Assembly (NCBI GenBank): GCA_032358255.1
Contig: JAULBX010027297.1
Location: 1 to 38,928, forward strand
Length of the DNA: 38,928 nucleotides
Origin: Heterotrichella gracilis
Lineage: Eukaryota; Sar; Xanthophyceae; Tribonematales; Xanthonemataceae
Direction: 5' to 3'
This document shows positions 58-37,956 of this stretch, piece by piece. Each line of letters opens with the position of its first letter. Within the stretch, counting starts at the first letter, position 1. The notes below the pieces were generated by a model, which was given only the letters and a program-made list of their open reading frames with translations, had not been told where the DNA came from and did not search any database. A program made the translations under genes and the position numbers.

Positions 58-3000
58 GCAGCTGGCGCCATACCCATCCCCACCACCACCATCCCCACCC
101 AAAGGCCCAGTGTCAGCCAAACTGTGCGAAGAAGACCCTAAACCCTATCGACCCATGAAGGCAGATAAATCAGCCTTGATTTATCTTTAGCTTTGGTATT
201 TTTGGTCAGTTTATCTTTATCCTTGGGGAAAAAATCCTTATCTTAGGTTAACCCTTGCTGGTTCAGGTCTATCTATTTTTCCGTGTGCCCTTGGGCGGGC
301 TAGCCCATCGTTTATCTCTATATGTCAGTCTTTTAGGCCTAATATCCTTATCTCTCTGATTTTCGGGCCATTTAAGTTATCGTATTTATGCCTTTATGGG
401 TCGAACCCTAAACCCTGCACTCAAACTGTACACCCTACATCCTTAACCCTTCTACCCAAAGCGGTGCAGGAAGGCCCTAAATCCCAATCCTGTGCACTAA
501 TAGTACTTATAAGGTTGAACCCGGGTAAGGTTGAACCCCTATTCTTACTCTTGTGTCTCTTCACCCCCACTCTGATCTAGATTCTTACCCTTGCCCTTAC
601 TTATGCTCTATATGCTCTTATGTACTGTGTTCTGCTAAGCTTGAACCCTTACTCTACCTTAGGTTTGGCAAATACTTCGGGAGAGCCTTTGTGAAGCTAC
701 CCCAAAACCTAAACCCTAAACAGGGCTAAGCAGCTTTGTATGATCCACACCACATTCGCCACCGCCGCCACCCTAGCCACCCACCATCACCCCCACACCA
801 CATCACCTCCCCCACACACCCAACCCCACATACCCCACACCATGTCTCCCCCCCCCTTGTCCCCGCGCATCTTCCTCTTCTGCCTCCCATTTCTTGCCCC
901 TTCAATCCTGCATGTCCTGCATTGCCTCTTAGTTGCCGCAAGCCCTCAAGCCCGCTTAGGCGCATGCCATCTAAACCCTAAAACCTGAATGGTGGTGTGC
1001 ATGGTCTTTGCATGAACACAGCTACCCCATCCCCACACGCCCCCCAAAACATATACCACCAGAAAACCAACACCCCACATCCCACACCATGCCTCCCACC
1101 CCCCGCAGGTTCTTCTCCAGCCTCCAGTCTTGCATTGCCTCAAGCATAGCCAACATCACCTCCACATCCGATCCAGTGGTGGTACTTGTGGGGTACAGTA
1201 TCGCGGACGCCACCTTGGGGATGGCGCTGCAGGGGGGCGGGGTGTTGGATGTTATGGATCAGCTCACGGGGTGCTTCGGAACCACCCTAACAGGGTTTTC
1301 GGTCCTGGACCAGGTGAGTCCCTTAACCCTAAATGAAGAAACCCTAATCATTGTTGTGACTCCTATGTGGCTGATCAGCTCACACGGTGCTTGGGGGCTG
1401 TCCTCACAAGGTTTTCGCTGCTAGTGAGTCCCTAAACCCAAATGGGAAGACCCCATCACCTTACAAACCTTACAACCATAGGAATTATAGGAATGCTTGA
1501 CTTTGATGTGGCGTGGCTGCTTGAGGACTGCTTTGGGGTCAACCCTGGTAGGGTTCTGGAGCTGGCGAGGTTTAAATCCTAGTTTTTCCCTTTCACCTGT
1601 TGCAGAACACAATGCCCGCCTCCCCAGACGTGGTGGTCCGCGTGTCCTTCAGCCTCTCAGACAACACCGCCACGCTCAGCCTATCCGGCGGAAGCATGCT
1701 CGGCCTGATGCAGTCCCTACAAACCGCCATTGCCGGGGATGCCGCGGTTGCGTTTCCCCTCACCGGCCCCATGGTAACCGCACTGGCCTCCGGATCCGCG
1801 GTGGTGGTGGTGCAGGGGGCGGGGCTGCGGCTGGCGGGGGTGGAGGTGGGGGGTACCCTCACGCTGCCTGACTTGGCACAGGGGGTTGGGTTTGAGTATC
1901 CCAGTGCGCTCCCTTCCGATGTTATTCAGGTAAGGGCGCATCAAAAAATACAATATATGTGCATGCGGTATAGGGTTGAGGGCGTGGATTGTGGATTTTG
2001 GCAATGCGGGGGCCCCAGGGTGGGTGTGGGGGTAGGGCTGCGGCTGGCGAGGTGGAGGTGGGGGGGTATGGGGGGTATTGTTTGGCTGCGTGATGTTGGG
2101 GGCTGGGGGTGGAGTGGACTAAGGGGGTGGGGGTGGAGTGGACCAGCGCGCATCTTGCAGACATGGTGCAGATGGTGGGTATAACCGTACCATTCTTTAA
2201 TTTTCTGTAAAAGCAATTGAAAAGGTGCAGGTGGAAGGCATACCTTGCGTTTCTTTTTCTCTGCCTACATTATTGTTTGCTCTTGTTTGCCGAAGGTTAC
2301 ACTAGCAATTAGCGGTAATGTCCCAAATCTCTTTTTTTCACCAACTGATATATACATTTGTAATTTGGTATGCAGTGCATTATTGCATGCACTTTGGTAT
2401 ACATATATGCAGTGCAGTGTTTCATGCAATATGCTACTATCTGAGAGTTGTAACCCTTGATGCCTATCCGATCTTACTTTTTTGTGTGTTAGAGGTCGGG
2501 GGCAATCCTCCTTGTCCTGCGGTGGCGATAGCTTCCTTCCCCCTCACTCACCCGCTGCCAATGCTGCCTTAAAAAACATACCAAACCCACATTTATAAGT
2601 GGTTGTCCCATGGCGCAGGTTTCGAACCCCTTCATGATATTTGTGCCCAAGGTGGGTGGCCAAACCTCCTTCGCTTACAGTGGCAACACCTACCCCGCCC
2701 CCTCGCTCACTGTGGGCCTCGGTGTTACCATCCCCGCACTGGATTTGGTGGACTACCAAGCACAAGTCGACATCCTTGGAGCAGTAGGGGCGCATCTCAA
2801 GGTGTGCACGGCCCCGTTTCCCCTGCCGCCTCCGCCCCCCACCACAAAACAATTCAGTGTGTCGTGGCGTTTTGTATTTAGAATGAACGCTTAGCATCCC
2901 GCCCACTGGTCTTGGCGTTGCCATTCCTGCACTGTTCAAAGTTTAGGATTTCTATTTTACTCCCTGACATAGGGGCAGGAGGAATTTAATATATCACCGA

Positions 3001-6000
3001 TATATTAAAGTCTCCTTGATAGGGGGACATACCGGCACAGGGCAAGGGGGCCAAACCTACCGGGATATTTTGATATGTACCAAAAATCCAAATGGCAATC
3101 TTGTGGACTGCCTCAAGTTCCTGTAATTTCGAATTGGTTAGTATATTAAAAAATTGTCCCCGGCGCATCGGCGCACGCGGAGTAATGTGGGTGCCAATTG
3201 TATGTTAGTTGTTATTTGGAGAACATTATTAAAAAAAAATCATCATATTCTGCTATGCCCCTCCTACCCTTCCACGTGGTCCCCTGTCTCATGTCCCTCG
3301 CTAGCTTCAAGTTCAACGCATACAATGGGCCCCTTTATGCAAAAAAAAACAAAACATGTACATTTTTCTAAAAAAGTGTTGGGAAAAGGCACAAAAAATG
3401 ACCCAAAGTCTGGTATGTGCCCGTCACTTTCTCCCCGGTCCCCTCCCTCATGTCCCTCACCAACTTCAATTCGACTCATTAATCACAGCATCCCAACACA
3501 AGCTAACCAACTCTCGGTGTGTGCTCCGCAGTTCCCCACCACCTTCCCCCTGGTTCCCTCCCTCATGTCCCTCACCAACTTCAAATTCGACTCCTCCAAT
3601 GGGGGCCTGTTTGGATCAGGCGTGCTGACTTTTGCCAGCAGCTTTAACGCACTGGCCAACCTCACCATGTTGCCCAAATTTGGCGGTGGCGCAGGGTATG
3701 ACTACAGCTTCCACTTCGCAACTGCGGGAGTGAAGCTGCTCAAGGTGAGGAGTCAGGGTTCAGGGTGAGGAATTAGGGTTTGGGGCGGTTGGACTAGAGG
3801 TTTGGGGTTATTGGAATTTACAGACAGGTTTTTCACGCTGGCCCACCTCAACCTGTTGCCTAAAGCTGGCGAGGGGCATCGTTTACTGCTTGCATTTTGC
3901 CACTGTCGGTGTGAAGCTGCTCAAGGTGAGGGCTTCAGTTGGTATTTAGGCAAAATATAGAAGCCTAAGGAACTGATTGTTTTGGGTTTAGGGATGACGT
4001 TCACTAGTACACCGCCCGCACGCACTGTGGCCAACCTGGAAACAAGACTCCACTGACTAGGGTGTGGCGTCCTTTCCATCCCCGTGTGAAACCCTTGCCC
4101 TCTGTTACTTGACTGAAACTGTCGGTGCGTGTGCTATTTTTTGCAGGGCTTGAAGGCTGTGTGGCAGGATGCGCCCCAGCTCGTGACTGACCAGCTAGCC
4201 ACCATCACCTTCCCATCCCTGGACGTGGCCTCCATCATCCCAGGTGAAAAGAAACTACTTGTGAAACGTAACGGTAGAATTGTGGTGATGTGTTGTAAAT
4301 TAGTGTCCAATGAACCTTGATCAACAATGTGCTGGTCCTCGCCGCCCACCTGAACAATTCCACACCACACCCCTCCCACCTCCCACCAACCACCACTACT
4401 CACCACCACCTCTCCTCCCATAGGCGATTTTGATATTCAGGCCGCCTACAGCGGCACCTCAATCCGGATGGTGCTGGTGGCTCGCTCGCTACGCCTCATC
4501 GCTTTCCACCTAGCGGGGCCTCTCTCTCTGGCATCACTGGCTGCCAAGCTGGGTGTGGATTGGACTGGGACAGGCAGCGGAGTGACTGTGCAAAACATGA
4601 TGTTGGTGTATGTGTCCGCCAATGGTGCGTTTGCTGTGACATACCCTACAACCTGGGCAGAGCATGCACCCAGAACCCTACACCTCAAATCCTAAAATTG
4701 CTGACTGCCAAGCTGGATGTGGATTTACCAGGGGCGGGCAGTGGAGTGGAAACCACGAGGCTGATGTACATGCCAGGCAACAGTGCGTGAAACATAACTT
4801 GTCAGTATCATTTGTGTTGTATCCTAAATCCCCCGCGTTTTCCCCCTTTGCCATGTATGGCTACATTGTCGGCAGCCGCTACGCTGTGGGGGCGACACTA
4901 CGGCTTGGCGTACCCACTGTCACATCACCACTGTCGTTGTTCTAAGAATTCAGGGTACAGAGTGCAGGGTGTAGGGTTTTCGAACACAATGTGACCTTTC
5001 CTTTTCCTCCTCTGCAGCCACTACAGGCTACGACTTTGAGGGTACGCACTATGACCCAGGGGTGTACCTCAATGCCCAGGGGGCGATCCTGGAGCTTGAC
5101 GCACCCAACGTGACCCTGTCGCTGGCGCTGCTCAAGGGGAATGCCACAGTGAACTCCACCGCAGATGTGTCGGTAGGTGGTGGTGGGTGGTTGCGAGGTT
5201 GCCAGAGCTCTTGTGGGTGGGGAGCTTGCGTGTGCTGGTGCTCGGTTGGTTGGTGCTTGGTCAACCATGTGGCGCCAATGCTCACCCCAAAAATTGCATC
5301 TCCAATTTTTCAGGTCCAGGGCGACATCTCTCTCATCCCTGGGATCCTGCTCCTGCATGCGGGCGCCTACTCGTCCAAGGGAGGCGCGCTCTTCCAAGCA
5401 ACACTTGCAGGGACCATCGACTTGTCTTGCGCCATCACATACACCACCGCACAGCAGGTAACAATTAGTCAGTTAGTCAATTATTTACATGCATTTCAGT
5501 CTTGCACATGTGGCGCCCAGCACCTCGTTCGTGGCAGTGATTAGTTCCTGGTACAGTTTATAGACTTATAATGTGGTAACAATGCCAATTATGCCAATGT
5601 TTGAAGCAATATTGACATTTGATGCATGGTTGCAATTTTTAATAAATTGCATATGTATGCTAGATTGCATTTTGAGATACTTGCATGTATCGTTGGTCCT
5701 TGTTATGTATTCGTGGACTATCAAGACCATCATGAAAGGAGTATTGGCATCTCGTTGCGATGGGGCACCACAATGCCCTTGTAGAAATGACCGCGGCAAC
5801 CAGATGCCTGTATTTTTTCCTGCATTTGTGGTGTTGTTCACCCACGCCCGCCACCTGCAGATTTCGGATGGGGCCCCCAAGTTCCTTGTGGACATGAGCG
5901 CGGCAAATGTGGATCTATCGGCTGCGCTGCAGACCTTGTGGCCGGATGTGCCCCAAGCGGTGCTAGACTCGCTTCAGTCAGTCAGCTTCCCTATCCTTAG

Positions 6001-9000
6001 CATAAAATCCGACCTGCAAGGTTTGTGATGAAAAATGTACCCATGAGTTAATTGGGGGACATCCCCTGGATGTCCTATGTTATGTATGCCTCCTAAAAAT
6101 CTTGGCTGAGTCCACCTTAACCTGAAAAAGCTTACCTGAAATGAACTGACCTGGAACCCTACCGACCCTAAGATCCCTATCAACCATCAACTGATCCCCT
6201 CCATTCCGGTTGCCGCAAAACATGGACCCAACCAACTAACCTCTAAATCACGAGTATAACAAGTGTATGAGCTGCTGGCGGTGCACACATCGGGCAGCAT
6301 AGGCAGCATGATCGGCGAGAAGCTGACCTATGCTGACCCGCAAAGATGGTGGAACTTCCTCACAGTGGGCTGACCCAATACCCTACGAACCCTACCAACT
6401 AATATCTACTGTATTGGTTCTGACACTACGGGAATGCACGCAACGAGCTAACCAAGACCCGATTGCCGGCCTGCGGTACATGAGCTACTGGCGATGGCCT
6501 CACCGGGTAACATGATCGGCGCGCAGCTGACCTGCGCAAGGATGGCGTGTCATTCCTCACAGTGGACGGACACAAAACCCTAGGAAACCCTGATGGCCTA
6601 AATAGCCAAAATGCACATAAAGTTGCAGAAGAATCCTGCCAACAAATTTGAATTTCCCGCCTTTTTGCAGGGGTATATGAGCTGCTGGCGGTGCACTCCT
6701 CTGGCAGCATGATCGGCGCGCAGCTGACCCGTAAAGATGGCGTGCTCTTCCTCACAGTGGGCTGGCCGGGTGTCCTTTCCATGTCTACCCTTGCGGCCGA
6801 CTTTGGTTACAGCTGGGACAGCGGGGGCGATGCCATCAGCCTCAGGGGCATCTCGGTGGTCTACGTGTCACAGAACTGTGAGTGCTTCTGGTTCTTCCAG
6901 GCTTTGAAGTCAAAGCCTGGAATTTGCGAGCAGCCAATTTGCTGAGTTTATATTGCAAGTGATGTTGATGTGTAGTATAAAGCCCTTTTCATGTCTACCC
7001 TGGTGGTGGCTTTGGGTACAGCTGGGCCAGTGGGGCCAGTGCATTCAGTCTAAAGGACATCTCGGTGGTGTATGTGTCACAAAACCGGTGAGTTTGTGTG
7101 TCAATTGTGCCCGCGATGTATCGCATTAGCTGCAGCCATGCGCTACATGCGCGGGCATGAGAGATTTCAAGAAATTTTGCACCCCAAATACCCTAAACTC
7201 TGAACCATGGTTGGGTGTAGCTGGGCTGTGTGTGGGTGTGGGTGTGGGTGCGGGGGGGTGGCACGCTATCAGCCTGAGTAGCCTGAGGGGCATCCCCAAC
7301 CCCAAATCAACACCATTGTTAATGTAGTTTTTCATTTTTGTTGCATGCATCCCACGGTGTTGAAATGTGATTCCCCCTTTCAACAGTGACAGCTGGTGTG
7401 ACGGTCAACGGCACTCTCTTCCTGCCCGGCGTGTACCTGCAAGCACTGGTCACCATAGCAGCGCTGGACGCTACTGACGTGGCAGTTACATTTGCGCTGG
7501 CCAAGGGCGATGGGGGCAAACTGAGCCAGCTGGACGTGGTGGTAAGTTTACTAGGTGGGGTGTAACTAGTTAGTTTAGTGGAATCAACCATGTACATTCC
7601 CCCCCACCTGCAGATGGGGATGGCAGTGTCATTATATTTCTCATGTCTTTCCTTTTATCATATACTGTATATGCAACCGTTGGATATGTCAGGCTTGCGG
7701 TGGACAATGGCAACGGGGCAAGTTGAGACGTGTTGGTATGCCATAGGTGGTGCAACATATGGGGTATTTGTTAAATACGTGTTACAATTTGTTGAATATC
7801 TTTTGATAATGATTATGGTGATTTTCTTTTGGTTATTTGGGCGCAACCAGTGTGCTGGTGTCTTTTGCGCTGGTCAAGGGCGACAGGGACAAGCTCAGCC
7901 AGCTGGACGTGGTGGTAAGCTGCGGGTGGTGCAACAGAGTTTCTTTACATATCTGATGTTGTTAGTAAGTATATACATAAAACCTTTGTTCCGGTATCCA
8001 GTAGGTACGGACCAAATTCGGTTATCCATTTGGTACGTTTTGCGCAGCAAATGTGGCGGTACCCATTTGGTATGGACCAGGGCAAGTTCAGGCAGCTAGA
8101 TGTGCTGATGGGCAGTGGGTGCATCTACTTGCGCCTTTCTATCCATATGTATTATCTGCAAAGGGGAGGGTGCACCACACACAGGTGCGCACATGTCCCA
8201 TCCTAAAATTGCCCTCCCATGTCCTTTCCACGGGTTAATGGGAATAAAGGCAAACTGAAGTACCTGAGAAATTCCCCCTTAACTTGTTGTTTTCTGCAGG
8301 TGGCTAAGGACACCACCATCATCGCCACTATCCCCACCCTGCTCTCCCAGCGCAGCGGGGGGTACCACTAGGTTTCATTATTCTATATAGTAACCCTAAA
8401 CTCCTTTGACGCGCTGTTTGCCTAAAGCATCGAACTGCGGCAGCGCTCAGTAATACGAGGAGACTGGGAGGACACTCAGTGTGTACCAACTTTGTTTTTT
8501 TCTGCAGGTGGCTGGGAACATCACCATCATCCCCAAGCTGCTCACGCTGCGCAGCGGGGAGTACCACTCAGGAGGGGGGGCCTCCTTCGACGCGCTCTTT
8601 GCACAAACCATCGACATGGCGGCAGACCTGACTTTCACAACTAAAGCGCAACAGACCGGGGGTGCACCCAAGTATTTGGTGGACATGACTGCAGAGAACG
8701 TAAATGTGGACCAAACAATTGGGGTGATGTGGCCCTCTGCACCCAACTATGTGGCCAATTCCTTGGCCTCTTTTAGCTTCCCAGCAATTGCGTTGAAATC
8801 CGACCTGAAAGGTGCGCAAGAATCAATTAAATCCCTGGAAAGCCCTGTCAAAACCCCGAGAATATAGTGGGAATTTATTGTATGTGATGGGGAGGTGGAT
8901 TTGTGGTTTGGTTTACTCAGCATTGTTCCTTCACGGCACCCGCCACCCTAAATCGTGTAGTTGACACTCTGAACGGCAGGCATCTTTGGGCTAATCGTGA

Positions 9001-12000: not shown

Positions 12001-15000
12001 GCTTTGTAAGTGCATGCGAGGACTTGGTGCACCCTTGATTTGCACCTCGTTGGCCCCGCACATGTCGATTTCTTCATTATAACCTTGGTAGAGGGAGGCG
12101 CCACACGCACCTTCATATACTTCATAACCCCAACCCTAAACCCACAACACCAAACATGAAGGATCTAAACCCAAACTGTAGACATCAAATGTGTCTTGTC
12201 AAGGATGCATACATCATGCTCATATGCCACCGGATGCTTCTCCGCAGATGTCATGTTCTCCATTGGGGCAAGGGTGGAGGGCGGCTCCGGTGGTACATTT
12301 GTGACCTTGAAGGGAGAGGTGCTCACACAGCTAGGGTTCAAGAACTTCCCCTTCATCGCGGTCAAGTACGTCAACTTATACCCGTTGATCGGGTCATTTA
12401 GAAAGCCACAGATTCCAAAACGTAATCATTGGTAAATTCCACCTCACAATTGGCCTTGCAAACGGTGGGCAACTTGTTGTGCATTTAGCTGCCGTTGAAA
12501 GGAAAGTTCCTGAAGAAAGTGCTAAGCTTCAAAGCCTTCCCTTCCTACACTTTCAACCCACACACTAGTCCCTTGGCAGGGTTATTGGCTAGCACACCAA
12601 CTCACACCGTGGATTGCACTACGCCTTAAACCCTAAACTCATATTGGCTAGACCCTGTTGCACAGACCTTTGTGCCTTGCTGCAGGTATCTGCTGGCCAA
12701 TATCATGTTGTGTATCGCCCTACACCCTAAAACCATACAACTCTCGTACCATGTACCCAAGTGTCCTCTGGCAAAGGTCGCGTGAAGGGTAAAGCCCCAC
12801 ACCCTAAAGACCTAAACCCTTAAACCCTAATTGTAAACCCCGATACCCGTTGCAGGTACCTGCTGGCAAAGATCACGTTGAGTGTAGCCCCCACTGCCGT
12901 CACGAGCTTCTACCTAGATGCCTCCACAAGCATCGTTAACGTAAAAGCAAATACAAGTATGGTGTACGACAAATCTGCAAAGGGTTTCGGCTTTATGGTG
13001 CGTGTATGGGGTGGAATAGGTTTCAACTTGGTGGGGGTGTTGTAGCCAAAGATTTGAAGGTGCACTGCGTAGCTCTAGAGCTGTAGCTACTCAATACTCG
13101 TTGATCAACTTAGTCTATAGCTTCAACTAGATGCATCTACCGACATCATGGGAGTGGATGCCAAAACAAGCGTCGTGTACGACTATGTTGCCAATGGATT
13201 TGGCTTCACAGTGAGTAATATTGGGTCGAATGTTTAAATGAAGATGAAGATGAGGGGTTTAGGGTCTAGTGTGACCCCCACCTCTGCCCACAACTTGTCC
13301 CTATCAAGCATGCATTTTTGTGAACAAGGAAGCCAAGCGATGTGTCGGCTTCTTGGTGGTTTCTCTCCAATGGGGCAAACTAGGCAAACCAGGCAAACCC
13401 TCCCAACATGGGCAAGCCCGCCTTGCAGGCGGCCAAACATCTGCAATACCCCCTTTCCCCTCACACTACTCACACCCCTGATCTTGTAGGTGACTATCGG
13501 CTCCTTTGACCTTGAAGGCGCACTCAAGACCATGGGTATCTCCGCCAGCCTTGGACCACTCAACGTGCAATTTTCGAATGTTGCTATTTCATGCGCAACC
13601 AAGACGGTGGTGACCTTGTCAGGTAGGGCCACATATTTTAGAGTTAGGGGGAGGAAAATGGCATAAGGATTGTAAACGATGGTATCTTAAGGGGGGCAAT
13701 ATTTGTTTGGGGATTAGAAATGGTACATGGAGTACATGGGGCGTAGGTAATGTAGGTGATGGTATCATAGGGGGCATGCCGTGTTGGTGGTGACTTTATT
13801 AGGGAGGAGCATAATGACGGGAGGGTTACCTTATCCTACAAATGTAACACATGGCATTGAAAAAGTATCAAGAGCGCATTGCCTTTGTCTTCGCTTGCTC
13901 CACTTCCGTGACCACAATTGTGATAAATGACAATCTGCATAATCGTTCATCCCATCGTTTTTTAGAATTACTCAGTGTACATCCATTCGTATATAGCAAG
14001 GTATTGTGTATTCATCCATCCATTCATCCAAACACTTGTCTTTTTATACATGTATTGCCAATGTGTGGTCTAGCAGTACAAACTATACAAACATACCAAC
14101 AAATATCGATTCATTAAATGCCCCATTTTTTCTCCCTTCAAGGCACCACCATCGACCAGGGTTTCAAGCTAAACGCTGGGATAAATCTGCTTGGCATTCA
14201 ATCCACTGTGTTCTTTCAAATGACCGCAGATGGGGTGGACTTCTCCGTCACACTAAATATGGTGCGTGCCATGTGGGAAATCATTTCTATCTACAAGTAC
14301 AAAATATACAACGAACATGGCATATTCAACTCAACTCACAGACACCATGCACGACATTTTCCACCATTGTATGTGTTATATAAGCAACCTATTGGAGTGT
14401 GCAGTCCATGCGGTGCCTTCTCAACCCTGCTAACCCTACCCGTCACACTGTCTCGGCCATGCCTTGAAAATCCATCCTAACCCTATACCATAAACCCTAA
14501 ACTCTGCCCCACCCCATGCATAGGGTCGGCCACACCCAACTTTTGAAGCTTCATCCTAAACCCTGCCCAACGCCTTGCATTGTATTGGTCACACGTTGGA
14601 AGCTCCATCATAAACGGCAAAACCGTCAACCGCAAACGCCAAGAAGAGGACTCCGTCCTAAATTTATATGTAATTACGAACCTCGAAGTCCTAAACCTTG
14701 AAACCTTAATTAATGTGCAATTTCTGTAGGGAAGCTCAATCAAGACCGTGCTTGACAACGCCCAGAGTGATGTTGACAAGTAAGTATCCTAAACCATAAA
14801 CTATACACAAAAGCAACATGTTTGGGGTTTGTGGCACGCGTGCAACAGGCTGCATATGATTTCCTTGTAAGAGCTCGTGCAAGTGGGTCTCAAGGGCGTT
14901 GGGATTATTGGGAATCATTTAATGGGTCCTATCACCATTTACTATATTTGGTTGACCATTGGGGTGTTGTCCTCCTCGCGCAGGTATGCACCCAAATTAA

Positions 15001-18000
15001 ACCGGGTGTAACATCATTAATGTCCTTCCTAAGCATACTAGGTATCATCTTGGCAAGGTTATGCAAATTTAAGCCACTCGGTGTATCAATGCTATTAGCC
15101 CTAGCCGTAGTGGGATATTAGCGTCGTACGAAGACTTCAAATTAGCGCGAACATAGTCGTAAACAGTTCCCTATCGATCGATTTGGCTTTGGATAGGCTT
15201 AATTTTGCTAATTCCGCTAATTCGGACGTCGAGCGGCGAATTAGCGCAATTAGCGGAGTCGATGAAAAGTTAAATTTGGGCGCGAAATTACCACTGCGGC
15301 TACGGCTAATGTACCTAGGTAATTAAAGTTACTAGCAAACAGCATCAAGCTAATTGTTGGTACTCGTTATACTCGTGCTTTGCAATGAAATGGGCATCAA
15401 GCTGGCCAACCTGGGTATTGTGCTGATTGTGCTCCACAACACCTTGAATTAGAATAATTAGAATCTCATTTAATATAAACTTATTGTACCTAATCTAAAC
15501 CTCATCCAACCTAATCCAAATTGGTCACATGGTGCAGGGCCCTGGGCATCACGTTGTCTGATTTCGGCATTGTGCTCCACAACGCCTTCGCATTCACCTC
15601 AGCCAGTGTGCAACTCAAGATCACCAAATCCGAGGCAAGTTTGATTGGGGCACTTCCATGATTTGGTATACAAACACTTTACACCAATGAAAACTGATTG
15701 GATCTGCTTCGTGTGTGAAGTCAAGCCTCTGTTTTGTGGTTGGCATGCTCTCTTCGAATTTTGCCCACCCACCCCACACCATTTCTCAAGTGCAAGTATG
15801 TAAAATATGCCACATATTCCGTAATGCATCAGTCTTTTTAAGCAAATGTTTCCTATTTAGTTAGTTAGTTAGTTAGTTAGTTACATGCATTCCTCCAATA
15901 CAACCAGGTTAGCAGTCAGTCTTGCACATGCGGTGCCACGCAGCTCTTTCCTGGCACTGTTTGAACCACGTATTGATTCCACGCGACTTGAGGTCCTGCT
16001 GGAGTAGGTCAGCCCACGTGGCCCTTGGCTTACCTATGATACCTACCCCCTTTGCCCCCTCTACCCTATCAAACACCATACATTTAGGGAATCCAATCGT
16101 ATGATTAACGTCCCAAATGCCCCAACCAGCTTAGCCTAATGTCCCTGAGTTTGTCACTGATGCTTTGTTGCCCACACTTCTGGGGCTTCTAACGGAAATA
16201 GGGGTGTGCACCAACCTTGAAACCCCCCACAGAGCCCTTGAATAATTACTATGAAAAACCTGTAATCTATCAAGTTGAGGCTGCGTATTAATAATAGCCC
16301 AGCTGTCAGCCCCATATTAAAGGGTTGCCAGCACCACTGCACTAAAAACCTAGCATTTTGTGCGCAGACTAACTCGCATGTTATGCCACAAAACCCCTCT
16401 GAGCGATGCAAAGGCGCTCATGCACGGCTAAGGCGGTGTGAAATCTCTGCGTCTAAAGTGTTATCACTAGTAAATGTTTCCTATTTACTCCTCAGGTATT
16501 CATGCGTGTGACCGCCGACCTCACCATCCTCAGCCAGCACGTGTCCATCGACCTGAAACTGGGCATAACCAACATGGACGGCGTGCTGGGCAGCATCAAG
16601 GACAGCATTGTGTCATTCTTCACGGACCACTTCATGAAGGGTGAGGTGGCAACTCTAATAACCCTAATTTGGGCCCTAAGACGTTATGACATTGTTCGAG
16701 ACACCGTCACAATGTGCGGGTGGGCAAGCCCTGATCCCTAAAACATGAACCGTACGGCGGCTTTGTGACCTGTCCTCATGGGATGACCAATGGTACAGCT
16801 GATCAAGGGTGTACGAGTAGGAACTCATGATTAAAATCATGGAGTCCAACGAGAACCCAAAAACTTGACATTCAATGTGCGTTGGCTTAGTTGGTTCTCA
16901 CCCTTCAATTCCCCTCCCCCCTTTCTCCCCCCTATTCGACTCCCTTGTTATCTTAGTTATCTTCTTGTGTATTTTCTTAACTTCCTCACTTTTTGCACTT
17001 GTCCATTTGACAAGTCACGACAACCCGCCTTCCCTCCTTTCAGGCTATTGCACCAAGGACACGGTCTTGGTGGACTCGTGCTCTTTGACCAGTCCCAAAT
17101 GCGGCAATTGCGTTGCGGGCACAGACGTGGCAGGCGTGTGCTGGAACTGTGCTGCAGGGTGGGACTTCTTCAAAGACGGATGCGGCAAACCAAGTGCGAC
17201 CCGAATCCATTTGCATTCTACATATGTAGACATTAATTGGATCATGAATACAGTTATGTTTATATTAGTGGTCTCCAATTTGAACATACCGGTATTTTTT
17301 TGAAAGGTATTTTAGGAATTACATGGGCGCATGCCAACTATGCCAACATGCAAGGATGGTAGGACTTCTCAACACCATGGATGCAAAATAAGTGTGATTT
17401 GTGTGTATGTTGTACTAGTATAACTTTGAAATTTTATTCCACGCATTTCATGTGTTTGCCCCTTCTTGCCTAGAAGCCTGGCTTTGGTTTGGGCACTTAT
17501 TCTCAAATCCAGCCAACATCGAATCCCCGGTCCCGGACTCAGTCCCAACCGCGTACATCAAACATGCATGAACAAAAGCTGTCGACAACATTGAAAACAC
17601 CTCACACAGAAAACACCCAAAAGTCTACACGATTGGGGCCCATCCTCGTTCAGCCCTATATCAGCATATGCCTACATAGCCTACATGCTTGGTACCGTTT
17701 GTGCAGGTGGCAAAGACTGCCCCGCGGGTATGGACAATGTGGCAAGTGTGTGCTACGGGCATTGCCCAGACTGGTACGTGTGCCACAATGAAGGGTTGAA
17801 CAATTCAATAGTACTTGCTTAGAGTTCCAATACCACGAAGGGCATGGACTAGTACGTGAAGCAATGGAAGGTTTGATGTTTCACGCGTACCATGGATTAG
17901 GAAAAGGGGGTGTGCTATGTGCAATACCTTGAATGGTGCGTAAATGGGGTTACCTTGAATGGTACAAAATATTAATTCACGCCTTCCATCTAGCTTTATA

Positions 18001-21000: not shown

Positions 21001-24000
21001 TACAGGTTATTTTTGCTATTCATTAAAATTGTCATTTATGTGGTTTCACTCATTAATTTGTTGATTTCACTGCTCAGGCTGTGCTAAACCACACTCTGAG
21101 CATGGGTTTTCGCTGCCAAAGCACACCCCTTCAATACCTACTAGGTTCACTCTTCTTCACTAAAATGCAAGGACTATAATGACCTCTAGTCTTTTGCAAC
21201 CCATATTTCCTCAAGAGCCCTACTACATCCTGGAAATTTCTAAAATTCCACGCTTGCAGTGGGCAATCGAGGTGCGGCCCAGTGGACAACCCACTGTCAT
21301 CACCACGGTGCCCATCCACATCATAAATTCGGTCAACACCTACATTGTGAAGATTGGGAACTTGACGTCGGGGTCCTCTTACTCGTTTGTGCCGGTGGCT
21401 ACTTGGAATGGCGCAAAGGCAGAGGCCAAGGGGACATACGGATACACTGTGCCTGGTGAGTGACCAATATGCAGGGTTGGGACCCAAACCCCATCTATGT
21501 GCACTTTTCCACATGGGATACATGGGAATTGTAGAGTAATTAAGATGAAATAAATTGGTATGTGGGTCCACCTACATGTTGTGCATGTGACTATGTTTGT
21601 GCATATGACTATTTAAACCGGGGTAAACGGGGGTGCACGCAGCTTCACAACGGGTTTTGTGATCAGGCGGACGTTTGAGAGCAAAAGCGGGCAGAGGGGC
21701 TTGAATATGACATACGAGTAGATAATGGTGCTCTTTGGCTCGTTTCAGTTTGCGTATCGCGTAGCTGGTTGTTGTTATTGTCGTTGAGAGTTGGCATGTT
21801 TTGGGTACGCATGCATCAATGTCCCATGGGTCGTAATTTCGACCATGTAGCATAGATTTTGTGTTTTCGAAGTCCAACATATGTGGAGAGCCCGGTTTTG
21901 AGCAGGGATCTTCCTCGGCTACCCCTAAATTATCATATAAGAGGAGTCTGCCTGTACCAAGAGTGTTATAAAAGAGCAATATTGCATATTTTTCTGTGCC
22001 CTCCACTACTAAGGGTTGCCTGACTCAAAGAACCCGCTATATTTGTTTATAGCGGATGATGCTTCCTTGCATATTGTGGCTTCCATGACCCATGCATGTG
22101 CCCAAAAGAAAAGAATTGATACAAAATTGGTGTGAAATTCCGTATAATCTTGCCTATGGCCATTGCTTTTTTTGTTGTTGATGTTGTTGTTTGTTCCCAT
22201 GTATCTTGTACAATTTAATGTACATGTCTCTGGCGCCGCGGCGCTGGACTTCAAGACATTGCGCGTGTACTAAACCAAACTGTATAGCTTCCGTTTGCCA
22301 AAGAAGAAAAATCTCCAATAATCTAATGCATGCGATTGTTCATGACTCCTCTTTGGCACAACGTGGCTCCCTCTAGGCTGTTTCAAAATCCCTAAGATCT
22401 CGCAAATCATGGAAAGTACTACGTCTCTTCAACTATTTATGTATCCATTTGTGTTCTCGTGTAGCCAATGTCGATGCTGTCCCCCCAGCGGCGTTGGACT
22501 TATCCGACCAGACTCTGCTAGTAGGTTACACGGCGACTCCTTTTGGGTTGAAGGCCACTGCAACAGACTGCAACGGGCAGCAAGGTGGCAACTGGGTGGC
22601 ATTCAAGGTGGGTGGGGATGGGGTGATGTACCAGAATATGAACATTCTATTGCGTTGGGGGTACGATGTGGAATATGTGGAAGGAGGTTGTGGAGTGTCA
22701 ATGTAGTGAATGTACTTACATATATCTGAGGTATAGAAGGTTTGCGTATGTGTTTATCGTATCCTTTGTATGTCCTTTGTGATTTTTAGGACGATAATGC
22801 ATGTGTCCCCGCCAGGTTTCAACTAACAACGGGGTCATGGCCAATGCACCATCTGACGCAACCCTCACCACCCTTACTACCGACTCCTCGCTCTTCACAT
22901 ACGCTCTCTCCGATGGCTCCTCTTTCCCTGGCTATGGCGTGGCCATCGCCACCGATGTTGTGTGTGCCAAGCCGGGGGTGGTGACCGCTGTTGCCAAGTT
23001 CTATTGCAGCACGAATGGCAGGAGGGTGGTGTCAAGAAATGCGTCCATCACTTGCGTAGGTACGACAAGATACGATGAGTCCTTTCCTCTTTTACAAATG
23101 GAGTGATACATGAGTCCTTCCCTTGATGTGGGTGGAAGTGGCTACTTGAGCTACACCGTCACAAACCCTTGCCACATGCTGCCTGCAATACCCTTAAGCC
23201 CAAACCCATCCTCACACAAGCCATGGCCAATGACAACAATGTCCTATGTATCCTATGTCACGGGGGGTAGGTTAACCTACCACCCAGCACTCCTAGTGTT
23301 CCCGCATATCCCGCACCATAAAGGAGTGCACCCAACTAATATGGTAGGGGAAACAGTGGACAGAAGGGCAATGCCCTTCTCTTCGCTCAATCCTCTTCCT
23401 AAACCAACGCGCCTGTTCCTGTTCAAGGACAGGCTGCGTATTTGTTTACTTATTTATTATTTTATTTGGCCAATGTCAAACTTGATGCACCTGCGTAGAA
23501 GGACAAGGTCAACATGCACTTTTCCCTAGGACTACTAGGACAAGTTATATTCAAATATTCTTCTTTTCATTTTCTTGCAGGCGAAGGAAACGTCACGGCT
23601 ACCTCCACCACGCAGGATGCAACCCAAAAGGACAAAGTGGCTGTGGCTTTCACAGTGGACATGAATGGGGTGTACAAGCCGGGAAGTCAAACGAAGGGAA
23701 ATTGGTTGTATGCCACGGTGTCGGCCGCATCAAGCACACCCGGGGCAAAAATCCCTAACGCAATATCGGTGGGAATTCATTGCCCTTCCCTAAACCCTAA
23801 ACCATGTACGATGTCAAGCCCTTTGTCTTTGCAATACATGGTCAGTACTAAAAATACGTGAATGAGGTGTAGCTCCCATACAAGACTCTCAACGAGGTCG
23901 CGTGGGGCTCATGTTCAACATAGATCATGCACCAATAACATTCCATTGCATGATTGCATCTCACGATTACATGTTGTCTCTATTTATCTTTGTATTATTA

Positions 24001-27000
24001 TTATTATTACACGCGTACCGGCAACAAAGCCAGATCAGCAATCAGCCGTGCACAAGCATGCGCCACCCGTCCCTATCCTGGCAATGCTTGTACCATTTTG
24101 TGAAGTTTCTCGCCTGCAAGTCCTTAGTGACGAGAGCAGCCCACGTGGCCTTGAGTGCTCCCCTAGACCGCTTTCCAACCAGCTGCCCAATACGCTTGGG
24201 TATTCCGTTGACTGCCATACGTCCTAAGTGCCCCAGCCATTTTAGCCTAATAACCCTGAGCTTTTCCTCAACTGAGGATTGCTTACATTTATCTCTGTAT
24301 GGCTTTTGGCTAATGGGTTGAGATCTTAACCAATCGTCTTACTCCCATCCCGTGAATCCCGTTCCTAAGCGGTAGGCGGTGTAATCACAAAAGAAGCTAT
24401 AATGTTCCCCACATTAGTTAAACGATATAATACAACATGTTTATGTTCTATTCTTTTGTGTATGTAGGTCCAACTTGCCACTTATAGCAACGCCTTGGTG
24501 CCACCGCGCCCCTACCTAGGCAGCGCTGTCAACATAATCGCAACCATGCAAGGGCTGCAGGCTGAGGCGGTGTACACATTCAGCATCAGTGTACGCTACA
24601 TGTCGGGTACCAAGACTGCGGTGACCGGCAACTATAGCTGTGAGTGCCAACTCTAGTACTTTTAGTGCCCATTAGCCTATAGGTATCAGTGTCAATGAAT
24701 CTATCATTTTAGTGTATGTCGTGCAACATGCTGGGAAGTTTGCGGTGCCACATTGTGGTGTCATAGTTGTAGGTTGGAAGAGCAACATTCCAAGAACGGA
24801 TAGTTGATCAACTACTGTTTCTGAGTATCAACTACAACAATTACAACAATGAGCATTGGTCTTTGAATGCATTTGATGGGTGCAGACTCACTTTGTTTTC
24901 TTCCATCGGCCAATACCTTTGCATATAAAATAAACCTTGTTGAATATACTTAATATACTTCTTTGTTTTTGCGTGCAGTCATTTCTCCAAAGCCCATATT
25001 GGGCAGTAGTGCTTTTGTTGAAAAAATGTACTTGAGCGCATTTGGCCAGAGCTCAAACCTCGAGAAGTGCAGCTACAGCAGCTCCAATGACTACATGGTC
25101 CCAGTGTTGATCATGCGGATTAACCCCAATGGCAGCCCGTTGGTTGATGTCACCGTCTCTTGCAGGCGAGTTACTACGAATTGCACAGGATTGCCTATGA
25201 TTGCATGAGCCCAATAGACCTTGCAATATTATGTCTGGGGCGTACGCCCGTATCAACCCCAATTTTGGCTCGGTGGTTGGTGCCGTTGTCTGATGCATAA
25301 AAAATAATCGCACAAAATCTCACATACTCCAATATGATCACTCTTGATCACTTTATTGCAACGTTATTACTTGCTTGCGACTTGCATATTATCAGTAACT
25401 TGCTAAGTTTGCTTGTGGTGCGTGTGCATCAGCTACCCACCTACAGCGTGCTGGCCAGCGTCAATGTCAGGAGGTATTTAGTATATCCTACTTTGCTGAG
25501 GGTACTCGAATAATTAGAGGGGCATACAAACCCATGAAACCCATGTGACCCTAAATTCTTCACCATATCACTAGGCAGCTTAGGCAGCTTGAGTGTAATC
25601 AATACAATGGTCAATGGAGGGGTTGATGACCCTAGGAACCCTTGCATGTTTTGCTTGCGCAAGTCCGAAAGTGTCTCCAACGGCACGCCCCTCAAGGACC
25701 GTGCCGGGTTCTCGCCACTTTCATCTCGATTGTGGTCGGGCCTTTAAAACAAAATTTTGCTTCTTACTGCTATGCACTCTTGCAACGACTAGAAATAAAA
25801 CCTTATCTGCCTAATCCCTGCACCTTTTTTGCTTACGCAGCTCCGGAACCGTTAGCAACGGCGCACCCCTTCAGGATTGCGGCGGGGTCATGAAAGCCAC
25901 AGTCTCGGCGTCCGATGGGTCTGAAAAGTTGTCTGCGTACAACTACTACTATGCCGCACTCCCCCGACTACCCACTGAAGGCTACTACCGCTTCCTCATC
26001 AACACCGCCACCAACTCGCTGGGTGGGATGAGTGACTTCAGTGGCCTAACTGACAACACGCGCGGGTTCCCCTCCCAAAGCCAAGGCATATACTTTGGTA
26101 AGCCGATCACGTTTTATTTGAATAATTCATTGCTGATATCTATATGCCTTGGACGAATGTAACGCATGGATGAATGAACGAACAAATGAAGGAAAGAATA
26201 AAGAAAGAATCATATACCAAACACCAACTTTGACCACCACCCATTTCCTCACGTGCTACACATGCCCTAACACCTCACACTATTCACCATACCCTACACC
26301 ACACCACCTACCGCAGCCTCCACCGGGCCTGCCACGGTTGCCATCCTCAAATCCATCACCACGCCCAACCCCAAGATGAACCGCTACTTTGTATACCCGG
26401 CGCTGGAGTTCGACAGCCAGTCCCTGACGGACTGCGGGCTCCCGTCTGGTTCTCAAATGGGAGACATGAGTTTTCAGGTAATTATAGCAAAACTTGCATT
26501 AAAAAGGAAATGAAAACGGCGGTGGATACGCCGCAGATGGATTCCGGGCAACATGTGGATGGACCGGCAAACATCACCTCTCAGGTATTTACAACAAATT
26601 GTTAACCAACGATATAAACCCAAAATAAAGTTGCCAGTTCAAGTCCAGCGAGACACAGACATGTTGTGAAAACGTGTGTGGGGCTGACATACGTAGTGGT
26701 AGCACTCTAGGCCTAATCCGGGGGGGACAAAGACCATACGATTTGGGCCCCTTCCCTTGATCATACACACTTTTTAAAAAACTTAATATTATTTGGATTC
26801 AGCATGTCGTAATTGATTTACACTCGTGATGTCTCAGAAAATGTGTTTAGGACGCGGGAAGTGGCCATATTATCATCGGAAAATCAAACAGCAACAAAAA
26901 CGTTTTGGACTCGGAGTCAAAATCGCCCAAAATCGACCAGCAAAAACAAATCGAAACGATGTCTGAACAACACAAAAAGTAAATTTAAAAAGCAAAATCA

Positions 27001-30000
27001 CACTTCTTGTCGAGTTACCTTGTTGCGGCGGCTTTCAAAAGTCAGTATTCCGTCAAAAATGGGGACCATGGCCCTCCGCCCCTGAATACCCAGAGTGGGA
27101 ATTTAGAGAGTTCCAGCACGAGGGCTGGCATGACAGACATCACTACTGAGTATTAAAAGCAAAGAGATTTAATAAATGGATTGTAATGACATGGGGATGT
27201 GGTAGATGTGGTTTTATTTCATTCCAATTGTGAAATTCCCTGATTATTAAAGAGATTATTGTTCAAAGCGATGATTTTTTGTTAGAAGTTTGGAATTACA
27301 GCATTGTTGTCCGCCACACATGCTTACATAGTTGGAACGTCCATGCATCTACTAACCCTGTAACTGTTTCTACAGGTGGTCTCGGGTGGATTCTCATGGA
27401 GCAGCGCCACTTGGACGCGCGCCACAGACACATCCCCCGCTTCCTTACACAAGTTCGCCCTGAGTGGCTTCTGCACCCAAGTGGGCGAGGTGCACATTCT
27501 GGCCCGTATGACTTCCTACAACACAGGGCAAGTGGTGCCATACAACATCACCATCAACTGCGGAGGTGGAGTGCAAACCTTTAACTCTGCGCCATTAACG
27601 CTTGGCCCTAAATTGTAAACCCTTCTGCACGCAAGTGGGCGAGGTGCATCTCCTGACCCGCTTGATTGCCAAGGAGCACCGGCCAGGGGAGTAGTGCCAT
27701 TCGACGTTACCATCACTTGGGGGGCTTGGTTGTCGGTGTATGCCCTGTCTAAACTCTAGACTGAACATCTAGAACATCCCCTACTAGCCAGCATGACAGC
27801 AAAATGCAGGGGCCAAGGGGTGTTGGACAATGGGTTGGGAAGGGCTGCCTGGACTGCACAAACACACACAGTTGTTGCCTATTGTTACACCCCGTCACTT
27901 GCGCCCGCTGGTGCCACATGCTTGCGCAGTGCTAGCATTTATAGCAGTGCACAACTCTGTCAACCAGGCATCTCATGATGCATGCCCACCCCATTTCTTG
28001 CCGTTACCACCACCCGCACGTGCTTTGCAGATGCCGTGTGTGGGGACAACAATTGCTCACCCGGGGAGGGCTGTGGCTGTCGGGACTGTATGTACTCAAC
28101 AAAATGCCAACAAGGTGGGTGCTATACCTTAGGATTTGTGTACAACCAAGCACAAATGGTGTGAACAGAATGCTATGAACATTGGGAGTACCCACTACCC
28201 ACCACCATTGGGGTCCACCACCAACCCCTTGATAATGCAACCGCTGGAATACAGGAAATACTGCCCAGCGGACAAAGTGCAAGTTGATATTGTGTTCTTT
28301 TATTTAATTTATGCCACATGGAATACATTTCTGTGTGTAACACATTCATGGCAATTCTGGCTGCATATATTTTTGCCCTTTACCCCCCCCTAGTGTACCC
28401 TTGTTTACCTTGTTTCATCTTCATATCATTGCAAAACCAGGGGTGTTGATGTAAAAAGCAGAAACCTGGTTTATATATCAAACCCCTGCATAAACCCATG
28501 ATTTTGTGCATACCCCCACAAGTAATTAATTTGTTCCATTACTGGTTCATGCCCCTGGACCCCCCGCTGGTGCCACAACTACTACAACACACAGACCCTA
28601 CCAGCAACCAATGCGTTCCAGCCAGTGAGCTATACTGTTATAACTGTTACAGGGGCAAAAAGGCTGTGTAGGAGTGGGAGTTGTCTAACTTGTCGCAACA
28701 TGTTTTTAACAATATGTTACACTTGCAGCCCACTTCACACATTTCTTTCTACTTTAATATTAAGTTTATGTTTATGTGTGTCTCAGGCCCATCCGGCTCT
28801 GGGTGCAAGCCCCTGGACCCTACCAGCTTTTGCTTTGACCGCCGGACGGACCCTACCAATGCACAGTACGACGCAGCATGCGAGCCATACACCATCGGCA
28901 ACTATTGCTACAGATCATACTATGACCCAAGTGGGAACCCAAACCCACCCCCCGACCCAGTGTACCTCAACATCACCGGCGCCACCACCACCTCCGCCAC
29001 CGCCACCACCAGAACCATGCACATCAACGCAGTCATGGACGCAGGTATGGCGGGGGCTTATTGAATAAAGGGTGTTGCCTTTAGCTTCTGCTACCTTTAC
29101 TTCAAACTAGGTACCTGGTATTATATTTGGCACTTGTTGCAGTACAAATCTGGTTTGTACTTTACATGTGTATATATAGGATATATATTTGTGCATTAGT
29201 TTATGCTTGGCTGTATAATTAAGTATTTATTGCTGCTTATTATGTTATTTGTGTGGCTCTTGCAGCGTGGGACATCGATCCGGTGGTCACCGTGGCAGAG
29301 GACGGTACCGACTCCATGCAGAGGCCAGTGAACGTGAAATGCACCGCCATCACCGCCGGAGCCACCTGCCCCGCTGCTCTGCCAGCAAATTTCAACGCCA
29401 CAGTTCCAAATTACACCCCCGGGTGGTTTAACGGGACATTGCCCGTGACAATCGATGTACCCGGCTTTGACAATAGGGCAGCCAGCTACAACATCACGAT
29501 CACTGCTGCGATGTACAAGGTGGAGACGATGGGTTCGGGTAGTGCATTCTCTGTGGATGTAAAAGAGGCGTCCAGCACCCACAGCAAGGTCGTCTCAGTC
29601 CTCGCTACCCCTCCACCACCCCCGCCGTCACCTCCACCAAGGGATCCCCCACCATCCCCTACGCCCCCACCATCCCCCCCACCCCCCAACCCGCCGTCAC
29701 CTCCACCAACGCCCCCACCACCCTCCCCTCCGCCCCCACCCCCTACCCCGCCGTCACCTCCGCCAAAGCCCCCCCCACCACCACCAGCCCCGCCTCCCCC
29801 TTCTCCCCCCCCACCAGCACCTGCAGGTATCACACCAGGCTGACTTGTCACATGCAGTAGATATCTACAAGCATAACCAAATGTCTTGACAACTACTGGC
29901 ATTCGGCTTATTACGGGTGATAAATTGACTAGCCATTCATGCTTATCCTTCTTTTTTAGGGTCATTTATGTTAATCCTCACATTTTTTGTGGAAATGTTC

Positions 30001-36419: not shown

Positions 36420-36648
36420 AATAGCCGTAGCCGTAGTGACCACGTTAATACCAGTGTCAACGTCGTACGTTACTAACGCTTCAAATTAACATAGTCGTAA
36501 AAAGTCCCCTATCGACCGATTTGGCTTCGGATAGGCTTAATTTTGCTAATTCCGCTAATTCGAACGTCGAGCGGCGAATTAGTGCAATCAACGGAGTCGA
36601 TTAAAAGTTAAATTTGGGCGCAAAATTACCAATGCGGCTACGGCTATT
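36420..36648. mobile_element. Terminal-inverted-repeat element, copy 2 (MITE-like)
   Basis: About 229 bases in the same orientation as 15094-15310. Arms are AATAGCCGTAGCCGTAGT (36420-36437) and ATGCGGCTACGGCTATT (36632-36648). The internal hairpin CGCTAATTCG/CGAATTAG around ACGTCGAGCGG is conserved, as are CCTATCGA(T/C)CGATTTGGCTT and AAAAGTTAAATTTGGGCG. The two copies differ by small indels near the left end. It lies in intergenic DNA. Confidence 0.78.
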
Positions 36649-37956
36649 GTCAATTGATTATATCTGTCGACAGCCCTCAAAACCACATGGCTGCAGCCTC
36701 TCAGATTTAAGCGATATTTGATATCAAGTGACCATACCAGGTACTTTTAGGCATTTTTCTATAATTACGAACACTAGTTACACTAGAACTACAATTATAT
36801 ATAGCCGATTATAGCTGTAGACAAGTATATCCACAAGCTCGTTAGAATTTCTTGCAACCCACGCGCTGATTAATTTTATGGGTAATGTACCCAACTAGCA
36901 TTACTGAGACATTTCTATTGCTGATTGGCAATGAATTGCCAAGTGGTGACCCCCAGCCTCCTGTCCCTTGAGCATGCATTAAAGCACCCTAAACACCCCA
37001 CTCCACCCCAGCCCCACAGTGTACGCAGTGTGTCGCTCCGCAGACCCCTCACTGTTGAACACTCCATTCAAAGCATGGTTAGCATGGCTCCCCATCACAT
37101 TATGGTTACCCAAGCCATGTTCCGCTCTAGCTGTTGCCGGCGGCCAGTGTGTTTTTCAGTGCTGCTCATTCCTGGCTGCAGCCACATGCGATGTGCCATT
37201 ATGTCACAGTGCCGCGCGGGCGCGCCGGGTGTGCCGGGGATCCCACGCCAACATTTTGTGGGATCCCTCTCCTCCCCAGCCCACCCTTCCCTGCCCACCC
37301 CCGTCACCAGGGCCTGGCTCGTGAACCATACTCACCCCTCAACAAATCAGAAGAAGGAAACAGAACGTCAATGTGGAATCCCCCCACACAGCCGCGTGGT
37401 ACACCACAGTGTGATTACATCTTACTCACATGGCACCAATGATCGCCCGCTCCTACCTAACGGTTAGCCAGCAAAAGGCGTTCTCTACTCGCCCAGCCCG
37501 TCGTGGGCAACCTCTTCCTTACTCTTCCCACAGCCCACTCCAGCTCCATCTTTGGCAACACCCACACCCCACACAATCCCACCCACATTGCCCAGTCTGA
37601 GACACAGCAGATCGTTGGCGCCCGTTATGCTCCCTCTCACCATCATGAGCCGTTGCCCCTTTGTCTCTGCACTCCTCTCCCGCCCTTGCCCACCCCTCCC
37701 CGTATTTTACATCACCTAACGGTAGTTTCACCTCCCTTCCTCGCCACCCCCGCGTGCTCCCTGCCGACCCTACCCCTTCCTCCACCGCCTCCATCGCCTT
37801 ATCCCCGGTGCGTGATGGCTTTTCCTGACGATGTCCATTATATGGGGGTTACGCATGTTTGTTATGCCACCTTCTGCAGGCCCTGGCTTTGGGCTTTGAG
37901 GTTTGTTTCTTTTCCAAAAAGGTTTATTTTTCCTTACTCTGTTCTTTATGCTTTAG
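36649..37956 (+). other. Intergenic or untranslated DNA, C-rich in its second half
   Basis: 36649-36950 is A/T-rich. From 36960 the composition becomes C-rich with Pro/Ser/His-type ORFs in several frames (for example 36925-37467 and 37503-37970), none showing a recognisable motif. A micro-exon-like GCCCTGGCTTTGGGCTTTGA (37880-37899) sits between ctgcag and gtttgt. This could be the 5' part of a next gene. Confidence 0.35.

Follow-up and report, generated by a model that had tools for sequence, protein, structure and literature searches.

Local direct copies of exon edges, and telomere repeats between them, in a contig of Heterotrichella gracilis

Small tandem duplications reportedly arise by fill-in of staggered breaks in rice and in plant nickase studies. 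In mammalian cells, CST-Pol alpha-primase makes fill-in tandem duplications in addition to filling telomere ends (PMC8355091). Primate and rodent genomes carry telomeric runs that were inserted at double-strand breaks, sometimes with target duplication; the published counts are 83 human and 244 mouse interstitial telomeric loci, with duplication in 6/130 rodent and 4/25 primate insertions (PMC2246262). Interstitial telomeric repeats are noted in Chlamydomonas reinhardtii, where chromosome fusion is suggested as their origin (PMC6549138), and introns can be gained or remodelled by tandem genomic duplication (PMC4974935). Here we describe decayed local copies of exon edges in the introns of a long gene of Heterotrichella gracilis, and telomere repeats that are enriched between such copies in a sample of the genome. 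The stretch of DNA analysed (the window, 38,928 nt) is the whole of contig JAULBX010027297.1 (C479) of a 903-contig, 68.5-Mb assembly (GCA_032358255.1). The host gene lies at 1109..29825 (+ strand) and has 43 tentative exons, each with at least one open frame and with ends placed by eye, accurate to a few bases.

Exon copies in the introns of the window gene

A reading of the window made from sequence only (the sequence-only reading) had listed worn exon fragments at 15 places. Each was aligned to the 700 bp on either side, and the better direct hit was compared with 200 dinucleotide shuffles. For all 15, the direct match to an exon region close by scored higher than every shuffle (0/200 reached it), at 20–57.5 against 9–16 when the reverse complement was aligned on that side, so the copies are indeed in the same orientation as their exons. 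The weakest was 15390-15460 (score 20, shuffle maximum 16.5). One listed fragment, 12490-12790, holds up in part: 12627-12720 is significant, while 12490-12599 alone was reached by 1/200 shuffles. Self-BLAST of the window (E ≤ 1e-3) gave 17 separated direct pairs less than 1 kb apart, 15 of them outside a transposon-like cluster at 19.9–20.9 kb, and six inverted pairs, all within that cluster. No pairs were found in 20 whole-window dinucleotide shuffles, nor when the sequence was shuffled in 500-bp blocks (20 shuffles, E ≤ 0.1), and the similarities in the window thus exceed the shuffled background.

Twenty-two copies were aligned in all, their windows and matched exons being chosen by eye. 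They include three weaker, eye-placed candidates (1502-1571, 8080-8107 and 12765-12790), a further candidate at 5759-5799 (E 0.03), and 6263 and 6475 counted as two separate copies. Eleven lie upstream and eleven downstream of their exons, and identities run from about 60–65% up to 90%, as the earlier description of close to very diverged copies on both sides had it. The fragments were also said to occur throughout the gene; they are found early and late but unevenly, with 13/15 before 15.5 kb and two beyond (25.6 and 27.6 kb). A splice-site consensus can still be seen in several copies, in line with the claim that the splice junction is often included, but none of the 22 alignments covers both splice sites of an exon. 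The copies are as follows:

820..928, +: decayed upstream copy, acceptor and start of exon 1109-1314 (source 1067-1162); 0/200 shuffles
1373..1458, +: decayed downstream copy, exon end, donor and intron start (source 1257-1350); self-BLAST, shuffle test
1502..1571, +: possible older second downstream copy, same exon end (source 1245-1315); eye-placed, alignment score 13.5 only
2023..2065, +: exon-interior copy (source 1809-1853), sole exception to the side rule below; alignment, shuffle test
3268..3334, +: upstream copy, start of exon 3532-3744 (source 3542-3608); self-BLAST, alignment
3420..3477, +: upstream copy, start of exon 3532-3744 (source 3535-3593), ~90% identical; self-BLAST, alignment
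3821..3931, +: downstream copy, end and donor of exon 3532-3744 (source 3636-3750); self-BLAST, alignment
4701..4788, +: downstream copy, end and donor of exon 4424-4625; alignment
5759..5799, +: upstream copy, start of exon 5861-6020; self-BLAST, E 0.03
6263..6375, +: upstream copy, start of exon 6672-6876; self-BLAST, alignment
6475..6565, +: upstream copy, start of exon 6672-6876; self-BLAST, alignment
6984..7093, +: downstream copy, end and donor of exon 6672-6876 (source 6774-6883); self-BLAST, alignment
7864..7919, +: downstream copy, end and donor of exon 7389-7542, 89% identical; self-BLAST, alignment
8080..8107, +: possible second downstream copy, end of exon 7389-7542; eye-placed, alignment score 14 only
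8281..8443, +: upstream copy, acceptor and start of exon 8508-8811, split by an insert with a telomeric word (8394); self-BLAST, alignment
12482..12599, +: weak downstream copy, end of exon 12247-12366; score 18.5, 1/200 shuffles reach the fragment
12681..12720, +: upstream copy, acceptor and start of exon 12857-12997; self-BLAST, alignment
12765..12790, +: possible further upstream copy, start of exon 12857-12997; eye-placed, alignment score 13.5 only
13119..13225, +: downstream copy, end and donor of exon 12857-12997; self-BLAST, shuffle test
15391..15450, +: upstream copy, start of exon 15538-15633; alignment, shuffle test
25640..25711, +: upstream copy, acceptor and start of exon 25841-26099; alignment, shuffle test
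27622..27722, +: downstream copy, end of exon 27376-27564; self-BLAST, alignment

The upstream copies match the exon start in 11/11 cases and the downstream copies the exon end in 10/11, the exception being 2023-2065. This side rule (21/22, including the three weak, eye-placed copies) has a one-sided binomial probability of 5e-6 against an even split. When a direct duplication spans a single exon-intron boundary, an intact exon is kept on one side, and such a rule would follow; scattered copying is not expected to produce it.

The copies behave as neutral fossils. Across the 22 copies, mismatches with the exon at codon positions 1, 2 and 3 were 99/494, 84/489 and 143/487, and 36/46 alignment gaps were not multiples of three (a count that includes gaps within flanking intron columns), which together fit a freely drifting copy compared with an exon changing mostly at third positions. 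Two paralogous genes served as third parties, one on contig C566 (exon-sized matches ~82–93% identical to the window gene) and one on the opposite strand of C513 (~70–86%); their introns are strongly diverged. Eleven copies were tried, a counterpart exon being present in C566 for nine and in C513 for all 11; the two without one in C566 are those at exon 3532-3744. With C566, private changes numbered 108 in the copy, 32 in the exon and 41 in the paralog, so that copies change at about 3.4 times the rate of the exon. With C513, paralog-only changes outnumbered exon-only changes (165 against 43, and in 10/11 copies, the exception being 13119-13210), and this larger class suggests that most copies are younger than the C513 split.

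Functional alternative exons would explain the splice-site consensus kept in several copies, but they were rejected because of the frame-breaking gaps and the faster change of the copies, and the lack of any alignment that spans both splice sites of an exon adds to this; we regard them as highly improbable. The same low standing is given to an assembly artefact in the form of unmerged haplotypes or raw-read patches. One young pair does adjoin a run of N (C566 4197), but the copies are ~10–40% diverged with graded ages, and all 43 tentative exons are open (short ones could be so by chance).

The C566 and C513 genes have their own local copies, which lie at different exon edges. Window copies 4701..4788 and 6475..6565 are similar to C566 fragments at corresponding positions (the intronic stretch 4840-4922, and 6604-6653 before its own exon), although change counts do not prove a shared origin. 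The C566 intron resembles the intron after copy 6984..7093 (z 2.4) and not the intron after the exon (z −1.2).

Spacing and spacers of local direct pairs

The search for local pairs was extended to a sample of 274 kb, made up of the window, C566, C513 and 17 other stretches (168,654 bases, ~0.25% of the genome). Window pairs starting at 19.8–21.0 kb, in the transposon-like cluster, were left out of the pair, spacing and spacer counts. At spacings of up to 3 kb (E ≤ 0.01) there were 95 direct pairs, merged by diagonal, against two inverted pairs, unmerged. Spacing was 225 bp or less in 75/95 direct pairs and 300 bp or less in 83/95, though 3 kb was searched, and the density of visible pairs was 0.2–0.9 per kb. 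Direct pairs within 300 bp occurred in 9/17 of the other stretches, so other genes show the pattern too; one of the nine (L024) looks like an ordinary larger tandem repeat. Together with the paralogs' own copies, these pairs bear out a duplication process that acts locally and in direct orientation only, and that has recurred over time to give pairs of mixed age.

The larger tandem repeats of L024 (7965-8654) and L026 (4970-6651), spaced ~165–234 and 566 bp, are apparently a different phenomenon. Stretch L013 (C1:100001-110000) has 33% GC, no local direct pairs and few telomeric words, and is perhaps an organelle sequence or a contaminant; it was left out of the telomere-cluster flank test, the short-match test and the strand-bias count given below.

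The pairs have the form A-J-A', where J is a spacer. Pairs spaced more than 300 bp and overlapping tandem pairs were left out of the spacer-flank and telomeric-spacer tests, and for spacer enrichment 6/75 pairs with another copy inside the spacer were also dropped, leaving 69 first-order pairs. Their spacing is bimodal, with 22 pairs at 58–117 bp, five at 118–159 bp, 40 at 160–223 bp and two above, in bins chosen after looking at the data. Permuting copy lengths and spacers among pairs puts 21.9 pairs in the 160–223 bp class, compared with the 40 observed. The median spacer is 82 bp, some are as short as 14–51 bp, and most are unlike their flanks.

This last point bears on another explanation, in which replication slippage or unequal exchange produced ordinary local tandem duplications, the intronic part then decayed neutrally, and the telomeric words have nothing to do with the process. 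That the pairs are direct-only and local, that the side rule holds, and that it is spacing rather than copy length that is constrained (40/69 pairs in the upper class) all agree with it. In 6/18 window copies the introns beside exon and copy are weakly alike (z ≥ 2.3), suggesting that some intron is at times included in the duplication, and one C513 pair retains ~100 bp of duplicated intron. But head-to-tail units predict a spacer that resembles the flank. Such resemblance (z ≥ 3) was found in 12/126 anchored comparisons and was no commoner than with wrong anchoring (11/126); it was seen in 2/16 pairs of at least 90% identity. Most pairs thus do not look like simple tandem repeats, and perfect head-to-tail units are unsupported for most of them despite the weak intron homology. 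The telomere-specific enrichment of the spacers, given below, also counts against this explanation, and we consider it rather unlikely. The sequence-only reading had proposed tandem duplication of exon-intron units; the process is local and direct as it supposed, but the recognisable duplicate is part of one exon with at most a little adjoining intron, mostly not head-to-tail and with a spacer between.

Several other repeats were seen in and around the window gene. At 19860-20903, in the intron between tentative exons 19234-19410 and 21258-21456, a cluster of ~80-bp direct repeats has an inverted counterpart ~0.7 kb off, and looks like a transposon with long inverted repetitive ends. A partly palindromic repeat is present as two direct copies, 89% identical, at 15127-15312 and 36471-36650. 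Related dispersed repeat pieces lie at 5496-5542, 10700-10747, 15881-16155 and 24007-24266 of the window and at 1-77 and 35176-35252 of C513; as C513 starts and ends in such a piece, contigs may break at that repeat. The host gene has a proline-rich stretch near its end, and a lipase class 3 domain is found at 34589-34981, downstream of the tentative exons. In introns, proline-rich repeats and telomere type the sequence looks green-alga-like.

Telomere repeats at the junctions

Perfect 44-base arrays of the TTTAGGG type open at least six contigs (C70, C140, C526, C609, C717 and C770), indicating that this is the telomere repeat of the organism. Of the 140 seven-letter words of this composition, the seven that occur most often in the sample are AAACCCT and its six rotations, and telomere-like clusters number 116 against two in shuffled sequence. 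The 16-mer AACCCTAAACCCTAAA has 3,695 matches genome-wide (overlaps counted) and its reversed control none; the matches listed are dispersed along the contigs. The genome encodes a telomerase RNA-binding domain, and Ku-domain matches are present, one of them in a stretch with two internal stops.

Telomeric words occupy 458 bp of the spacers of the 69 pairs against 119.6 bp expected, a 3.8-fold enrichment that none of 2000 random placements reached, while 19 other cyclic words of the same composition were enriched at most 1.57-fold. A telomeric word was present in 27/69 spacers (7/10 in the window, 2/9 in C566, 8/22 in C513 and 10/28 in the other stretches), and the words are concentrated within ~45 bp of the copy edges. 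Some junctions are nearly pure telomeric sequence, such as the 14 bases between 97-base copies at L009 7133-7342 and the 51 bases between 46-base copies at L009 8249-8391. In the window gene, telomere-like runs are found at the end of source stretch 1257-1350 (1320-1333), before copy 4701..4788 (4668-4696), between copy 12681..12720 and exon 12857-12997 (12718-12734 and 12811-12840), and directly before copy 27622..27722 (27575-27623).

The association was also seen from the side of the telomeric sequence. Direct duplicates (score ≥ 24) flanked 31/115 telomere-like clusters against 26/314 control points, and inverted ones 1/115. Short direct matches (score ≥ 8) were present at 17.6% of 136 telomeric runs against 8.5% of 669 controls, with 1.5% inverted; this is an excess and not a match at each run, and short target-site duplications at every telomeric run were accordingly rejected.

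The A-J-A' form could also be left by short mobile elements inserting through target-primed reverse transcription or transposition, the copies then being very long target-site duplications. Usual target-site duplications are shorter than the 40–170 bp that this would require. Three of four spacers searched genome-wide match only themselves, as does an arbitrary 60-base stretch searched alongside, and a dispersed repeat family was thus not found among them; the fourth (L012 3374-3458) has one further match and resembles window 19767-19815. Spacers matching elsewhere in the sample (16/67) are fewer than flank controls (37/133), and apart from matches among the three paralogs these look telomeric, again with the single exception of L012 3374-3458. 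Nor is the telomeric strand bound to one copy edge, as a retroelement tail would be (CCCTAAA strand 11 against 8, TTTAGGG strand 6 against 5). Mobile elements are, in our view, an unlikely source.

Another possibility is that selection maintains the telomeric words as intronic or regulatory motifs, akin to telo-boxes, and that they lie beside duplicates by chance. CCCTAAA shows a sense-strand bias in 27/36 clusters of the three paralogous genes, which are not independent, and in 12/17 of the window gene alone. The enrichment peaks at copy edges, 3.8-fold over the same contigs, and the two telomeric strands are equal genome-wide (1832 and 1863), both of which speak against selected motifs and leave this explanation very unlikely.

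Origin of the duplications and comparison with known systems

According to the reading we favour, to which we give about an even chance, the exon fragments in the introns were left behind when staggered DNA breaks were mended by error-prone repair, and a sizeable minority of these joins took up telomeric filler. Such a break would have widely staggered ends, from opposite-strand nicks tens to ~170 bp apart or from long overhangs, and fill-in on both sides followed by rejoining would leave two neighbouring copies of the stretch flanked by the nicks, both in the same orientation. Telomerase might extend the 3' ends before joining, or a telomeric fragment might be captured, leaving TTTAGGG or CCCTAAA in the junction; the remaining joins would hold non-telomeric filler. 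Selection would remove events inside exons, whereas those straddling a boundary would survive with the exon whole on one side, so that copies of exon starts would pile up upstream and copies of exon ends downstream, and the surviving intronic copies would then decay neutrally.

Several observations weigh against break repair with telomeric filler. Most duplications have no detectable telomeric word, 42/69 first-order spacers lacking an exact telomeric 7-mer. Spacers of C566 are not clearly enriched (21 against 15.5 bp), and the flank after the second copy is also telomere-enriched (274 against 145 bp). Only 3/20 perfect 16-base telomeric sites have direct flanking duplicates (score ≥ 24; L035 also reaches 26 inverted), suggesting that a long duplication accompanies only a minority of telomeric insertions. 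The bimodal spacing is not predicted (118–159 bp holds 5/67 pairs, the bins being post hoc), and the weak similarity of introns beside exon and copy (6/18) fits plain tandem duplication. By eye, homology in several pairs of ~90% identity runs out on the intron side no more than a few bases from the splice site, which is likewise unpredicted; selection against duplicating a working acceptor region might account for it. No event with a clean empty site was found among the pairs examined.

A broader proposal, which is tentative and on the whole doubtful, is that in this organism the telomere-maintenance machinery (telomerase and C-strand fill-in) is a routine processor of broken ends inside chromosomes. 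Its products would be duplications of quantised length (~100 or 195 bp), for which nucleosomes may be responsible, with telomere repeats at the joins; they would have given rise to thousands of interstitial telomeric sites and be a main source of intron growth and pseudo-exons.

The sequence-only reading, right in spirit but incomplete, is partly supported by these results. Its suggestion that the same process built the module array of the gene fails on scale: the multi-exon protein modules at window 4147-9703 (24–47% identity in a protein-level comparison) recur every 2.1–3.2 kb, against 300 bp or less for 83/95 pairs, and the multi-kilobase array is left unexplained. The new content is the link of local direct duplications to telomere repeats in a genome-wide sample. 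In open-licence literature no paper was found that describes this combination for a green alga in its title or abstract, which is weak evidence of novelty. If repair with telomeric filler is the correct explanation, the copies amount to a dated archive, readable in the sequence, of a great many repair events of a single nuclear genome and of their tie to telomere repeats, and the frequency of telomerase action at internal breaks, and the feeding of intron growth and gain by break repair, become testable. Any proposed mechanism will have to account for the bimodal spacing, which serves as a quantitative signature.

One close likeness is to the fill-in duplications of mammalian cells, which are short, direct and adjacent and are explained by nearby opposite-strand nicks with end joining (PMC8355091). 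Here, the copies are likewise direct (95 against two inverted) and close (83/95 within 300 bp), but spacing extends to ~225 bp and is bimodal, the spacers are long and often telomeric, and 0.2–0.9 pairs per kb are visible. As in the primate and rodent account, short telomeric runs lie at presumed breaks with occasional target duplication, and the inserted motif is the organism's own telomere repeat, of the TTTAGGG type; the difference is one of abundance, with 3,695 overlapping perfect 16-mer matches in 68.5 Mb, although counting criteria differ (PMC2246262). Chlamydomonas reinhardtii is a green alga that also has interstitial telomeric repeats, the accessible text of that study mentioning no flanking duplications (PMC6549138). 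Finally, in intron gain or remodelling by tandem duplication, a boundary-crossing duplication leaves an exon copy inside an intron just as here, while the H. gracilis copies are decayed and occur inside existing introns only (PMC4974935).

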